64,000 nucleotides of DNA, taken from Flavobacterium silvaticum (GTDB taxonomy: Bacteria > Bacteroidota > Bacteroidia > Flavobacteriales > Flavobacteriaceae). Where the stretch lies: positions 119,126 through 183,125 of the forward strand of contig NZ_JAAMPU010000099.1 in assembly GCF_012911565.1 (NCBI RefSeq), written 5' to 3'. This document shows positions 11,260 through 15,635 of the stretch, one piece after another. How positions within the stretch are numbered: position 1 is the first letter of the stretch; the number at the start of each line of letters is the position of its first letter. A program made the translations under genes and the position numbers. Under the pieces are notes generated by a model, which saw nothing but the letters and a program-made list of their open reading frames with translations, searched no databases and had not been told where the DNA came from.

Positions 11260-11345
11260 AACCTGAGCAGTCGCGGGCTAAAGAAGTGTAGAACTGCTTT
11301 AGCATTTTTTACCGAGGTTGCAATCAGGCAAATTTTTCCTCCTTT
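11260..11345 (-). ncRNA. structured metK leader, candidate SAM-II-like riboswitch
   Basis: On the minus strand the leader shows a GGAGG/CCTC stem (plus coordinates 11338-11342 and 11314-11317) whose loop contains TTTGCCTGATTGCA, followed by GGTAAAAAATGCTAAAG. This order (P1, U-rich loop, TTGCA, P1', TAAA, GCTAAA) resembles the SAM-II aptamer. GCTAAAG (11297-11303) can also pair with CTTTAGC (11277-11283), and AGCAGT (11293-11298) with ACTGCT (11266-11271), which ends in CAGGTTTTT; these would be the alternative or terminator-like fold. The identification rests on my memory of the family consensus, so a covariance-model search is needed. Confidence 0.55.
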
Positions 11346-11353
11346 GATGGGTG

Positions 11354-11383: not shown

Positions 11384-11483
11384 GCCAATATGCATATAAT
11401 TTAAAAATCCGTGCAAGTGTTCCGGGTCGTATTGTAGTGTAAAGTAAATAATTAGATTTGTGATAAACCAAAACCGAATGTTT

Positions 11484-12392
11484 ATGAACAAAAAATTACT
11501 CTTCTTTTTACTGTTTCCCATAGCAGGCGTTTTTGCCCAGAATCTGTTCCATGAAAATTTTGATTCGACCCAAAATCAGCTTTTTACAGCTGGATGGGAA
11601 AGAAGCAATCAAAGTGAACCGCTCGGTACTTCAAATTGGAGCAAGGGAACGGCCGGGGTCCAGGATTATTTTGGCACCGGAGCTTATAATGGAAATGCGG
11701 CGACTTCATTTGCTTATTGCAATTTCGCCAGTGCATTAGGATCGGGGACTATTTCCAATTGGCTGTTTACGCCTGTCATCAGTCTCAATAATGGCGATGT
11801 GATTACATTCTATTCGGCTAAAGGGCTTAGCGGGGGAGAAACCATTTATGCAGATCGCCTCGAACTTCGCATAAGTGCAAACGGAGCGGCTTCTGTCCTG
11901 CCGGCGGGAGCTGAAGATACAGGTGACTTTACCACGTTGGCCTTAACAATAAATCCAGATTTGACTACGGATGGCTATCCTACCGAATGGACTCAATTTT
12001 CATACACGGTTTCAGGAATTCCAGACGGGACAGATTGCCGCATTGCATTCCGCTATTATGTGACCGAAGGAGGAACGACTGGCGCCAATTCCGATTATGT
12101 CGGCATTGATGAATTTTCTGTCGACCGGCCGCTTTCTACTCAGGATTTCTTCAAGAACAATGTGAGCATGTATCCGAATCCGGCAACCAATGAAGTCAGA
12201 TTTACTTCAAAGAACGGAGTTGCATTGATTTCGGCACAGGTTTTTGACATTGAGGGACGAATGGTAGCCGATGCCAAATTCAATGGTTTAAGTGAGACAT
12301 TTGTAAATCTAAGTGAGCTGAGTGCCGGAGTTTACTCGGTAAAAGTGTTTTCTGCAGATGGGAACGGAACGGCAAAACTCATCAAAAAATAA
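11484..12392 (+). CDS. secreted choice-of-anchor J protein with T9SS sorting domain
   Basis: About 302 residues from ATG 11484; ATG 11478 would add two residues. The signal peptide is MNKKLLFFLLFPIAGVFAQ. Residues about 22-215 form a jelly-roll domain of the choice-of-anchor J type: it begins FHENFDS, holds an internal NWLFTPVISL strand and ends VGIDEFSV. The C-terminal 75 residues form a T9SS type A sorting domain (MYPNPATNEV to AKLIKK). A promoter-like TTG-N18-TAGATTTG lies at 11432-11460. The protein is likely exported to the cell surface; its ligand is unknown. The downstream region contains cysteine-leader attenuators that belong to metY. Confidence 0.85.
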   Translation: MNKKLLFFLLFPIAGVFAQNLFHENFDSTQNQLFTAGWERSNQSEPLGTSNWSKGTAGVQDYFGTGAYNGNAATSFAYCNFASALGSGTISNWLFTPVISLNNGDVITFYSAKGLSGGETIYADRLELRISANGAASVLPAGAEDTGDFTTLALTINPDLTTDGYPTEWTQFSYTVSGIPDGTDCRIAFRYYVTEGGTTGANSDYVGIDEFSVDRPLSTQDFFKNNVSMYPNPATNEVRFTSKNGVALISAQVFDIEGRMVADAKFNGLSETFVNLSELSAGVYSVKVFSADGNGTAKLIKK

Positions 12393-12420
12393 ATCAGATT
12401 ATGTTAAAGTCTGAAATTTA

Positions 12421-12450
12421 ACTTGGAAGTTTAAAAATATCTTCCCAAGT
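12421..12450 (+). promoter_or_regulatory. inverted repeat overlapping a candidate metY leader promoter
   Basis: ACTTGGAAG (12421-12429) and CTTCCCAAGT (12441-12450) are complementary apart from one bulged base. TTG at 12423-12425 and CAAGTTTG at 12446-12453 are spaced by 20 bases, close to the flavobacterial promoter form. The repeat could be an operator over that promoter, or the hairpin ending the upstream gene. Confidence 0.45.
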
Positions 12451-12472
12451 TTGTGAAACAAGAAATCGAACC

Positions 12473-12541
12473 ATGAATTTCAATATTTGTCATATGTGTA
12501 TTATCTGTACGGAATCCTCCGGAGGTAACGCATTGGCATAA
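12473..12541 (+). CDS. cysteine leader peptide 1 (22 residues)
   Basis: A tiny ORF starting MNFNICHMCIIC, with Cys codons at positions 6, 9 and 12, and ending at TAA 12539-12541. A strong terminator hairpin follows 28 bases later. GGAGG inside the ORF (12521-12525) can pair with CCTCC of the terminator 5' arm (12571-12575). This is the arrangement of a ribosome-mediated attenuator: stalling at Cys codons would leave GGAGG free to block the terminator. No gene lies between it and the second leader, so both should act on metY. Confidence 0.7.
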   Translation: MNFNICHMCIICTESSGGNALA

Positions 12542-12568
12542 TCTGAACTTTTCAAGATATAACCAAAG

Positions 12569-12595
12569 AGCCTCCCGAAACGGAGGCTTTTTTTT
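12569..12595 (+). terminator. attenuator terminator 1 of the metY leader
   Basis: GCCTCC (12570-12575) pairs with GGAGGC (12582-12587) and is followed by eight T residues. It follows cysteine leader peptide 1, whose GGAGG competes for the 5' arm. Confidence 0.85.
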
Positions 12596-12663
12596 AGCCC
12601 TTAACCCCCAAAGGGGGAATGAATGCCGAATAAAATTGAAAATAAAAATAAATAATAAGTAAA

Positions 12664-12747
12664 ATGAACCTTTCCGCTACCATGATGTGTTGTTGCTGCC
12701 TGCCTACGTGCAAGCCCATACCCATTACCGGAAAGCGAACGACATAA
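12664..12747 (+). CDS. polycysteine leader peptide 2 (27 residues)
   Basis: A tiny ORF beginning MNLSATMM followed by four consecutive Cys codons (12688-12699) and a fifth Cys codon at 12709-12711. It ends at TAA 12745-12747, 24 bases before a terminator. Within the ORF, ATTACCGGAA (12724-12733) can pair with TTCGGTAAT (12777-12785) and AAGCCC (12712-12717) with GGGCTT (12795-12800), which together would dismantle the terminator. Polycysteine leader ORFs that sense cysteine are known from mycobacteria; a similar role in transcription attenuation of metY is inferred here. Low charged Cys-tRNA should stall ribosomes and permit readthrough. Confidence 0.85.
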   Translation: MNLSATMMCCCCLPTCKPIPITGKRTT

Positions 12748-12771
12748 TCTTTTGTTATTGTGTGCTTGTTA

Positions 12772-12808
12772 AGCCCTTCGGTAATCCTACTGAAGGGCTT
12801 TCTTTTTT
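12772..12808 (+). terminator. attenuator terminator 2 of the metY leader
   Basis: AGCCCTTC (12772-12779) pairs with GAAGGGCT (12792-12799), with an inner GTA/TAC pairing, and is followed by TTTCTTTTTT. It lies 101 bases before the metY start codon with no gene between, so it makes sense as a conditional rather than a final terminator. Confidence 0.9.
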
Positions 12809-12908
12809 GTCGGGAGACGGGAAAGTCAGGAAAGCCAGAAAAGACGGGAAAGTTGCCCAACGAATTAAAAAAAATAAAAAATAAATAATAACAATAAAAA
12901 TTAAAACC

Positions 12909-14201
12909 ATGAGTACTAAAAAATTTGCCACAAAAGCCCTTCACGAAGGCCACGACGTAACCAAAAACGGAGGAACACGCGCTGTCCCGATCTATCAAAC
13001 CACGTCCTATGTATTTAACAACGCCGACCACGCAGCAAACCTTTTCGGACTTGCCGAACCCGGGTTCATCTACACACGATTGAACAATCCTACCAACGAC
13101 ATCCTCGAACAACGACTCGCAGCCCTTGAAGGCGGAATTGCAGCAGTTGTGACTTCGTCAGGAACGGCGGCCTTGACCACGGCATTGTTGGTTTTGCTCA
13201 GAGCCGGAGACCACATCGTCGCTTCAAACAGCCTGTATGGAGGTACGTACAATTTGCTTTCGGTTACACTTCCAAGATTGGGAATCACGACCACTTTCGT
13301 CGATCCGTCCGATCCTGAAAATTTCACCAAAGCGGCAAAGGAAAATACCCGGGTATTTTTTGCCGAAAGTCTCGGAAATCCAAAACTCGACGTGCTTGAT
13401 CTAAAGGAAATCGCCGATAAAGCCAAAGCATTCAAAGTGCCGTTCATTGTAGACAACACCGTCGCAACGCCCTATTTACTGAATCCGATTGAATACGGAG
13501 CCAATATCGTGATCCATTCACTGACCAAATACATCACAGGAAACGGGACTTCGCTTGGCGGTGCCATTATAGATGCCGGAACTTTCGACTGGAGCAGCGG
13601 AAAATTCCCTGAATTCACCGAACCGTCTGCAGGTTATCATGGACTCGTATATCACGAAGCACTCGGTCCGGCGGCATTCATAGCAAAAGCACGAATTGAA
13701 GGGCTTCGTGATTTTGGAGCGGCATTGAGCCCGTTCAATGCCTTCCAGACGATACAAGGTTTGGAAACACTTGAACTCCGGATCAAGAAACACAGCGACA
13801 ATGCACTCAAGCTTGCACTCTGGCTGGAACAGCAACCTGAAGTAGAATGGGTCAATTATCCCGGATTGCCATCGTCCAAATACAAAGACCTCGCTCGTAA
13901 ATACCTTCCGAACGGCCAAAGCGGAATCGTGACTTTCGGTTTAAAAGGTGGTTTTGAAGCAGCCAAAAAGGTGGCCGATGAAACCAAACTTTTCTCGCTC
14001 TTAGCCAATATCGGCGATACCAAATCACTCATCATACATCCGGCAAGTACCACGCACCAGCAATTGAGTGATGAACAACAGGAATCTACGGGAGTTACCA
14101 AAGACCTGATCCGATTGTCTGTAGGGCTTGAAGATATTGAAGATTTGAAACTGGATTTGAAAGAAGCTTTTGCTGCTGTGAAAGTGCCTCAGCGGATATA
14201 A
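12909..14201 (+). CDS. metY: O-acetylhomoserine sulfhydrylase
   Basis: A 430-residue PLP enzyme of the Cys/Met metabolism family. It makes homocysteine from O-acetylhomoserine and sulfide. The PLP lysine is Lys207 in HSLTKYITGNG; SSGTAA and ESLGNP motifs precede it. The roughly 430-residue length and the insertion before the lysine favour MetY over the shorter cystathionine gamma-synthases and lyases (about 380-400). The next gene, metX, would make its substrate. Two tandem cysteine-leader attenuators lie upstream, so expression should rise when cysteine is scarce. A sulfhydrylase acting on O-acetylserine as well is possible. Confidence 0.9.
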   Translation: MSTKKFATKALHEGHDVTKNGGTRAVPIYQTTSYVFNNADHAANLFGLAEPGFIYTRLNNPTNDILEQRLAALEGGIAAVVTSSGTAALTTALLVLLRAGDHIVASNSLYGGTYNLLSVTLPRLGITTTFVDPSDPENFTKAAKENTRVFFAESLGNPKLDVLDLKEIADKAKAFKVPFIVDNTVATPYLLNPIEYGANIVIHSLTKYITGNGTSLGGAIIDAGTFDWSSGKFPEFTEPSAGYHGLVYHEALGPAAFIAKARIEGLRDFGAALSPFNAFQTIQGLETLELRIKKHSDNALKLALWLEQQPEVEWVNYPGLPSSKYKDLARKYLPNGQSGIVTFGLKGGFEAAKKVADETKLFSLLANIGDTKSLIIHPASTTHQQLSDEQQESTGVTKDLIRLSVGLEDIEDLKLDLKEAFAAVKVPQRI

Positions 14202-14269
14202 ATCCTAAAGATTGATTTTTATTGGTTTTACCTGCGGTCAGTTCGTCCTTCGTCCTCGGGTGTTTAGTT

Positions 14270-14304
14270 ACTGCCCGATGTCATCCGGCAAAGGGCAGTT
14301 TTAA
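14270..14304 (+). terminator. hairpin between metY and metX
   Basis: ACTGCCC (14270-14276) pairs with GGGCAGT (14293-14299), followed by TTTTA. The short T-run suggests a weak or partial terminator that could lower metX relative to metY. It ends 11 bases before the metX start codon. Confidence 0.55.
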
Positions 14305-14314
14305 AATCATCCAA

Positions 14315-15301
14315 ATGAAAGACTTAAAACACATTTCCCTCAGACAAATCGTCCTCGAAAACGGAAAAACCATTGCAGGTTTACCGTTGACGTACCAACA
14401 TTTCGGGCAGGAAATAGGAACAGCGCCTGTCATTGTAGTCAATCACGCCCTGACCGGAAATTCGAATGTGACAGATTGGTGGAGCGATTTGATAGGTGAA
14501 AATAAAACGATTGATACCAAAAGTTTTACGGTCATCGCTTTCAATATTCCCGGAAACGGTTACGACGACAATCCCGAAAACCTGATTGGGAATTATCGCG
14601 ACTTTACGGCCCGGGACATTGCGGCATTTTTTTGGAAAGGCCTTGAACAATTGTCGATACATTCGGTTTTTGCAGTAATAGGTGGAAGTCTCGGCGGTGG
14701 AATTGCGTGGGAAATGGCTGCGCTCGAACCTACAAAAATCAACAACCTGATTCCCATAGCGACCGATTGGAAAGCGACCGATTGGGTCATTGCCAATGTG
14801 TTGATCCAAGACAAAATCCTCACTAATTCAGATGATCCCGTCAGCGATGCCAGGCTGCATGCCATGTTGTTATACAGGACGCCATTGTCCTTGCTGAATC
14901 GGTTCAACCGGAAAAAATCTGCCGACACATTCAAGGTCGAAAACTGGCTTCTCGACCACGGACAAAAACTCAAGGACCGCTTCAGGTTATCATCGTATAA
15001 ACTCATGAACAATCTGCTCAAAACGGTCGATATCACCAGAAATCGCGGTTCGTTCAAAGAAATCGCCTCAAAAATTACCGCCAACATCCATCTTATCGCT
15101 GTCGATTCAGACCTGTTTTATATTCCGGAAGAAAACATCGACACACTCGAAATCCTTCGTCCATATAAATCAAATGTGTTCTACCACGAAATAGAATCGA
15201 TACACGGGCACGATGCTTTTTTGATCGAGCATCGGCAATTGTCGGACATATTGGAAACTATTTTCAGCCGACTGGGAAAAACGATAAGCCATAACAACTA
15301 A
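14315..15301 (+). CDS. metX: homoserine O-acetyltransferase (MetX-like alpha/beta hydrolase)
   Basis: About 328 residues from ATG 14315 (MKDLKHISLRQ). An upstream in-frame extension to 14222 is rejected because it spans the hairpin. The MetX features are the NHALTGNS oxyanion region, the nucleophile Ser125 in GGSLGGG, an Asp in the AVDSDLFY strand and the C-terminal His in IHGHDAFLIE. It transfers acetyl from acetyl-CoA to homoserine for metY upstream. It is shorter than many MetX proteins (350-380), mainly in the lid region. Succinyl rather than acetyl specificity cannot be excluded by eye, but pairing with metY favours acetyl. Confidence 0.88.
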   Translation: MKDLKHISLRQIVLENGKTIAGLPLTYQHFGQEIGTAPVIVVNHALTGNSNVTDWWSDLIGENKTIDTKSFTVIAFNIPGNGYDDNPENLIGNYRDFTARDIAAFFWKGLEQLSIHSVFAVIGGSLGGGIAWEMAALEPTKINNLIPIATDWKATDWVIANVLIQDKILTNSDDPVSDARLHAMLLYRTPLSLLNRFNRKKSADTFKVENWLLDHGQKLKDRFRLSSYKLMNNLLKTVDITRNRGSFKEIASKITANIHLIAVDSDLFYIPEENIDTLEILRPYKSNVFYHEIESIHGHDAFLIEHRQLSDILETIFSRLGKTISHNN

Positions 15302-15472: not shown

Positions 15473-15495
15473 CAGCGTTCATTAACATGCTGACC

Positions 15496-15595
15496 GTTAT
15501 CACGAAAGGCCGAGGGATTAGACCCGCTGAAGCCTTAGCAACCCTTTGCCAAAAGAAGGTGCTACATTCTACCAATAAAAATTTGGACAGATAAC
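15496..15595 (+). ncRNA. SAM-I (S-box) riboswitch
   Basis: The P1 stem is GTTATC (15496-15501) with GATAAC (15590-15595). Inside it are the S-box conserved blocks in order: GAGGGATTAGACCCGCTGAA, GCCTTAGCAACC and GGTGCTACATTCTACC. The expression platform is unclear: ACCGTTAT (15493-15500) can pair with ATAACGGT (15618-15625), which is followed by a long T-rich run, so a competing terminator-type fold is possible. It controls the split metH genes downstream, and would shut them off when SAM is abundant. Confidence 0.9.
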
Positions 15596-15635
15596 TCACG
15601 GAATTCCCTCACTTTCCATAACGGTTTATTTTTTT

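Follow-up and report, generated by a model that had tools for sequence, protein, structure and literature searches.

Two leader-peptide units in series before metY-metX in Flavobacterium silvaticum as candidate cysteine- and methionine-sensing attenuators

Two leader units in the window

A short ORF with a run of cysteine codons precedes metY-metX in Flavobacterium silvaticum: which signal would it pass on to the operon? The metY product makes homocysteine, the precursor of methionine; the metX-like ORF downstream scores 171.6 bits against TIGR01392, under the cut-off of 500. We analysed the stretch of 64,000 nucleotides that holds the operon (the window; Table 1). The original prediction described the short ORF accurately, with four consecutive Cys codons at 12688-12699 and a fifth at 12709-12711. 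The strong terminator it placed 24 bases after the stop codon is present as well (stem-loop 12773-12808, -18.5 kcal/mol, z -6.6 for the fold against dinucleotide shuffles). The Cys run was rejected as evidence by itself. Four TGY triplets in succession occur at 23 forward and 15 reverse places in this genome, against 12 and 14 for a reversed-pattern control; such runs are not rare, and the evidence is conservation rather than the run.

Table 1. Features of the metY-metX region (positions within the window)
Feature	Position	Strand	Details
SAM-II riboswitch before metK	11289-11347	-	Rfam
Promoter-like site, Bacteroidota type	12422-12453	+	-33 CTTG, -7 CAAGTTTG; predicted start near 12460
Leader ORF 1	12473-12541	+	MNFNICHMCIICTESSGGNALA; 3 Cys, 1 internal Met
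Segments 1 (CCTCC) and 2 (GGAGGT) within ORF 1	12515-12526	+	in the stalled-state fold, 12570-12575 is the partner of segment 2
Terminator 1	12566-12595	+	segments 3 and 4, then 8 T
Leader ORF 2	12664-12747	+	MNLSATMMCCCCLPTCKPIPITGKRTT*; 27 sense codons; 5 Cys, 2 internal Met
Segment 1 of leader 2 (protector arm)	12670-12676	+	CTTTCCG; complementary to 12729-12735
Segment 2 of leader 2	12724-12735	+	ATTACCGGAAAG; partner is segment 1 or segment 3
Terminator 2	12771-12808	+	segment 3 12771-12785, segment 4 12790-12800, T-rich tract after; begins about 24 nt past the ORF 2 stop codon
metY, O-acetylhomoserine sulfhydrylase	12909-14201	+	TIGR01326 639.8 bits, cut-off 495.1; PF01053
metX-like ORF (start codon uncertain)	14222-15301	+	TIGR01392 MetX best NCBIfam model; PF00561
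S-box (RF00162) before split metH	15494-15597	+	Rfam

Directly upstream of the polycysteine unit lies another (12473-12595), giving two units in series ahead of metY-metX. The original prediction overlooked this unit and the Met codons, two of which stand next to the Cys run of leader 2. The motifs CCTCC and GGAGG occur in ORF 1 and recur in terminator 1 (-14.7 kcal/mol, z -4.1 against shuffles); judged by their letters, they make up the four-segment layout of a classical attenuator. When the whole window was scanned for short ORFs with at least four Met/Cys codons and a terminator, the forward strand gave only units 1 and 2. The reverse strand gave one, at 15070-15249, that overlaps the coding frame of metX and is probably due to chance.

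Promoter-like sites were scored against the Bacteroidota-type consensus (-33/-7, 10 positions). The site ahead of leader 1 in the window scores 8/10, its predicted start leaving a 5' leader of about 13 nt, and the best site ahead of leader 2 scores 6/10. A site of at least 9/10 within 90 nt before leader 1 was found in 46 of 51 two-leader loci (mean score 9.04, shuffled 7.05). Ahead of leader 2, where the gap is 12-219 nt and often insufficient for a promoter site, one was found in 13 of the 51, and unit 1 would be bypassed there. As the site mostly occurs before leader 1 only, a single transcript through both terminators is favoured in most loci.

No Rfam family, T-box and curated leader families included, matched positions 12380-12920 at gathering level. 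At E-values up to 10, the same interval gave 19 matches, all far under threshold, the best leader matches being Phe_leader at 25.6 bits (reverse strand) and 23.4 bits (forward strand) against a threshold of 55. The only RF00162 match in the window is the one before metH, with none ahead of metY. Elsewhere in the genome, the leader-2 RNA model (R1) had two further weak matches (E 3.6e-4 and 0.004), and other matches of the leader-1 model (R2) had E 0.075 or worse. Together with the S-box and the SAM-II riboswitch, the leaders would bring the RNA sensor kinds in the window's methionine cluster to three.

Conservation and alternative pairing among relatives

We determined how widespread such units are in a first sample of 81 metY loci, made up of the best 80 of at least 526 confirmed relatives plus the window. 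A unit was defined as an ORF followed by a terminator, with at least three internal Met/Cys codons, in the 1300 nt upstream of metY. Among these best 80 and the window, at least one unit was present in 61 of 81 loci; leader 1 was found in 41, leader 2 in 58 and both in 38. By script, 20 of the 61 leader loci had leader 2 only (within 1300 nt) and three leader 1 only, including L003, where a leader 2 overlooked by the script is visible on reading. The same definition gave no units in the 81 reverse strands of these regions or in 243 Markov-resampled sequences. Third matches near -1100 (MFHKLLL.. and alike) were removed before counting, as metK lies on the other strand there. Five loci of the two family samples show a leader-1 unit alone before metY (L039, L054, L151, L163 and L179) and may be natural single-unit variants.

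Covariation was quantified in alignments of 35 leader-1 (A3) and 30 leader-2 (A4) sequences for the protector (1:2), antiterminator (2:3) and terminator (3:4) pairings. In A4, the terminator was paired in 99.4% of cells with 47 changed on both sides, the antiterminator in 82.0% with 10, and the protector in 70.3% with 19. In A3, the antiterminator was paired in 85.0% of cells (21 changed on both sides) and the terminator in 92.1% (40). The covariation scores of these five helices were matched by none of 500 shuffles. The count of pairs changed on both sides in the leader-2 antiterminator was matched by 66 of 500, and several of its pairs are often open at the ends (column 110 unpaired in 13 of the 30 sequences, column 111 in 14). 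In A4, MAFFT shifted segment 2 of the window by one column relative to neighbouring sequences, an offset that would lower the counts if it had any effect. A 1:2-type helix in leader 2 was also found unprompted by RNAalifold (16 sequences).

An alignment-free comparison gave a similar picture. In both leaders, the mean 2:3 and 1:2 duplexes formed by a locus's own segments were stronger than re-paired ones in all 5000 permutations (n = 37 and 30; repeated with n = 35 and 25). Support for the leader-1 protector comes from this permutation test only. Six of eight decoy comparisons, which excluded five leader-2 loci lacking 40 nt of downstream sequence, gave nothing clear, and in the other two own pairs came out mildly stronger (38 and 81 of 5000). 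L149 and L151, the latter left out because the script chose the wrong ORF there, are absent from the codon and decoy test and from the promoter count, and were kept in the first permutation test. Weak leader-2 antiterminator duplexes (-4.3 to -9.9 kcal/mol) occur in nine loci of one Flavobacterium clade (L018, L021, L031, L032, L043, L046, L057, L060 and L070), most others being about -10 kcal/mol or stronger.

The original prediction had drawn a nested antiterminator. Its inner helix (12724-12733 with 12777-12785) is present and covaries in relatives. The outer one (12712-12717 with 12795-12800) can form in the window but is not conserved, being paired in 45.9% of cells against a shuffled mean of 44.5% (30 sequences), and was dropped. 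What is conserved, and was absent from that description, is the protector helix 12670-12676:12729-12735. Leader-1 sequences retain the CCGCAGAGG segment but read it in either of two frames (..SPQR.. or ..SAE..), so the constraint there is on the RNA and not the peptide. As in trp-type attenuators, antiterminator and protector are conserved and mutually exclusive, the short ORF is enriched in Met/Cys codons, and an intrinsic terminator follows it by sequence and fold. This covarying, scorable motif could serve to annotate metY leaders across Flavobacteriaceae.

Proposed mechanism and the amino acids sensed

Trp/his-type ribosome-mediated attenuators have regulatory codons in a leader ORF, helices for either termination or antitermination, and an intrinsic terminator. 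The units described here share these features and differ in forming two serial units, with two sulfur amino acids per leader, in Bacteroidota. The mechanism class is already known. Going by sequence and its conservation, we consider it very probable that the two in-series units before metY-metX act as ribosome-mediated transcription attenuators that respond to the charging of tRNA-Cys and tRNA-Met.

When neither amino acid is short, the ribosome would run on to the stop codon and mask segment 2; 3:4 would then form and transcription terminate. A shortage of either would halt the ribosome in the Met/Cys run, over segment 1, so that segment 2 could pair with segment 3 and RNA polymerase would read on. 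If the leader is not translated, 1:2 would form, and 3:4 would end transcription. Full transcription would require read-through at both units, and this series arrangement may confer low leak and a steep response. If so, joint read-through of the two stacked units would be measurable. Folding is consistent with these states. With the ribosome placed on the Met/Cys run and segment 4 still to be transcribed, segment 3 was paired upstream in 35/35 leader-1 and 29/30 leader-2 sequences. This count is only mildly informative, because segment 3 still paired in 162 of 350 (leader 1) and 176 of 300 (leader 2) trials once the upstream part had been shuffled. When the ribosome sat at the stop codon or was absent, the terminator was in the best fold of all 35 leader-1 and all 30 leader-2 sequences.

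Which amino acids would be sensed was judged from the codons of the dereplicated sets (35 leader-1 and 30 leader-2 sequences). Met and Cys make up 24.7% of in-frame codons in leader 1 and 34.2% in leader 2; the other two frames reach 11.1/4.5% and 11.2/3.0%. These figures are partly conditioned, since the unit finder itself requires Met/Cys; an unfiltered look for units covered 13 loci only. The two residues are typically mixed, as in the leaders of L011, MKFTICNMMSCMMPEYSAETLL and MKTIARKNMMCCSMMQMCIPTCCCQK. As the leaders are also Met-rich, the term polycysteine suits this species better than the family, where methionine, by codon content, is at least as prominent as cysteine.

We therefore weighed single-signal readings against the two-amino-acid attenuators. 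That the leaders sense methionine only, with Cys codons incidental or positioning the ribosome, would fit the internal Met found in all 65 dereplicated leaders (35/35 and 30/30), an almost wholly Met leader in L139 (MKKAMNNMMMRDMMMSMMMRHMNRYCQNRI), an operon that makes the Met precursor and an alternating S-box that senses SAM. We nevertheless think this unlikely, as Cys occurs in 31/35 leader-1 and 30/30 leader-2 sequences, makes up 9.2% and 14.0% of residues over all leaders of each set, and exceeds Met in 8/35 and 7/30, both window leaders among them. The original view, in which one polycysteine attenuator senses cysteine alone, draws on the CCCC run and five Cys of leader 2 and on L002, the nearest relative in the MetY tree, where Cys likewise exceeds Met in both leaders. 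Against it stand the second conserved unit upstream and Met codons conserved family-wide, two of them adjoining the window's Cys run, and we hold it to be quite improbable. Parts of that prediction survive in the reading that we prefer. It looked to relatives for conserved Cys codons and covarying terminator and antiterminator pairs, and both are found there, along with the protector. Attenuation through a Cys-containing leader peptide before metY-metX is likewise supported, in two units and not one. Cysteine as the signal keeps its conserved codons, but Met codons are at least as constant, and charged tRNA-Met is probably sensed too. With Cys to internal Met at 3:1 in leader 1 and 5:2 in leader 2, cysteine is the likelier main signal in this species.

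Two further readings would do away with tRNA charging or with unit 1. Cys- and Met-rich peptides can bind metals, and copper-responsive Cys-rich upstream ORFs exist in other bacteria, so the nascent chains might instead sense copper, another metal or redox state. The number and position of Cys and Met vary widely between leaders, however, relatives have a SAM riboswitch before the same gene, and the 1:2/2:3/3:4 layout is of the tRNA-charging type, which makes metal sensing very improbable. Scarcely any weight falls on the idea that the hairpin at 12566-12595 merely terminates the upstream secretion-tail gene, with ORF 1 arising by chance and a single attenuator remaining. That gene (11460-12392, forward strand) does end just 80 nt before ORF 1. 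Yet unit 1 has a Met/Cys leader, covarying pairs and its own promoter-like site, and it is conserved before metY in loci with a reverse-strand SAM-II riboswitch upstream, where the neighbour is probably a divergent metK.

Paired attenuators sensing both charged tRNAs can also be compared with described systems. Mycobacteria reportedly have leaderless polycysteine short ORFs, which Canestrari et al. in 2020 are said to call cysteine-responsive in their title. The likeness lies in a short ORF with a Cys run (CCCC here) before sulfur genes. PMC13236596 treats the mycobacterial cysteine case as translation attenuation, and describes mycobacterial ilvB1 as a ribosome-mediated transcription attenuator. 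Candidate Cys leaders in actinobacteria were presented by Seliverstov et al. (2005, PMC1262725), who detected no conserved terminator hairpins in Mycobacterium. By these accounts, the mycobacterial system differs in its leaderless ORF and in translation attenuation with no intrinsic terminator, whereas here there are two intrinsic terminators and covarying antiterminators; the present case also has Met codons, precedes a different gene and belongs to a different phylum. Tandem attenuators are described for mgtCBR, where, according to Lee and Groisman (2012, PMC3641672), the ORFs answer ATP and proline additively; here, the same two codon kinds occur in both units, which argues against separate signals, and each unit has its own terminator.

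The original prediction knew of no example in Bacteroidota, which is too strong for the mechanism class. PMC9723704 reports strong clues, from transcriptome structure, that leader peptides attenuate amino-acid operons in F. psychrophilum, in the same genus and mechanism class as here. Its passages on this name no operon, Cys or Met, and its Table S7 may list a metY leader. Leader-peptide-like short ORFs in Bacteroides thetaiotaomicron are reported in PMC7366714. In titles and the beginnings of abstracts, we found no report of a Met/Cys leader attenuator before metY, nor of Met/Cys sensing by intrinsic termination, leader pairing or S-box exchange. If correct, our reading would place ribosome-coupled attenuation in a phylum for which the literature search gave only hints.

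Exchange with the S-box and distribution

The S-box SAM-I riboswitch (RF00162) resembles the leaders in its position before metY and differs in that the RNA senses SAM directly, with no leader peptide. It was absent before metY from all 60 leader loci of the first sample's relatives, and present in 19 of the 20 loci without leaders, L062 having neither. A second sample comprised 100 further metY loci of the family, taken from 200 genomes with a match, mostly in score order with a few skipped. G047 and G269 were included in the 100 because the RNA model matched them, and L091-L093, found by that model, were added (n = 103). Here, 78 loci had an S-box (nhmmer), 17 a leader (both units in 13), eight neither and none both; the 100 alone held 14 leader loci, or 12 without G047 and G269.

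Combined, the 184 metY loci comprise 78 with a leader, 97 with an S-box, nine with neither and none with both, or 78, 93, nine and none among 180 distinct loci, as four S-box loci are double. Counted among the leader loci in the 184 is L149, with a short ORF about 640 nt upstream, which is doubtful and is labelled "none" in the MetY tree. The nine loci with neither element (L062, L144, L154, L158, L162, L177, L194, L211 and L212) have no terminator within 1000 nt upstream of metY. A MetY tree (FastTree, 152 rows) requires at least eight changes between leader and S-box; with each label set against all other rows, the starred branches alone force three. This suggests that the two have replaced each other repeatedly, whether through loss, gain or transfer, which a quick, single-gene tree does not tell apart. 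Such exchange between peptide sensor and SAM riboswitch offers a natural experiment on why lineages sense tRNA charging or SAM.

Outside the family, we considered 81 metY loci of the class, among which L330 is a paralogue from the window's own family and two genomes contribute two copies each. Met/Cys leaders occurred in five, an S-box in 37 (nhmmer, at a looser E of 0.01), neither in 39 and both in none. The five leader loci belong to three other families (three to f18, one each to f35 and f52), the f18 loci representing all three genomes with a MetY match among ten genomes of that order. All five have two units, three by script and two (L250 and L251) with the second unit read by eye. At E ≤1e-5, R1 matched 29 of 346 genomes of the window's own order, all in its family and 27 in its genus. 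One could tentatively see paired in-series Cys/Met-charging attenuators as an ancient, phylum-level regulator of metY in Bacteroidota, acting as a multiplicative gate and repeatedly swapped with the SAM riboswitch, to which we give slightly less than an even chance. If true, close relatives would govern one and the same pathway by tRNA charging in some cases and by SAM in others.

Further leader-like units were observed beyond those directly before metY. R1 matched 134 of 299 family genomes at E ≤0.01, including stretches without metY (L101-L112); because not all R1 matches are metY leaders, we counted by metY locus. One leader-2-like unit, MKNFYRRNMIMMNKCMKMYQLFYGQKRKS plus terminator (L094:1491-1646), had no metY match in the fetched stretch. 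A third leader (..MNKMFNVARICVRVC) with terminator occurs about 2.8-3.1 kb downstream of the metY start (L005:5387-5488, L009:5371-5463 and similar; at a shorter distance in L058 and L078), chiefly among F. johnsoniae-like loci (40 rows, one being an unrelated reverse-strand row). In L009, it lies ahead of a second metY copy, and in L018, L021, L031, L032, L043 and L046 a leader like it stands directly before metY as leader 2. After the third leader, L005:5639-5842 encodes a hypothetical protein of a 60-67 aa family that has 186 homologues and no Pfam match. Inspection by eye shows similar small ORFs in F. johnsoniae-like loci, where they fall between leader 2 and metY, and in L046, behind metY.
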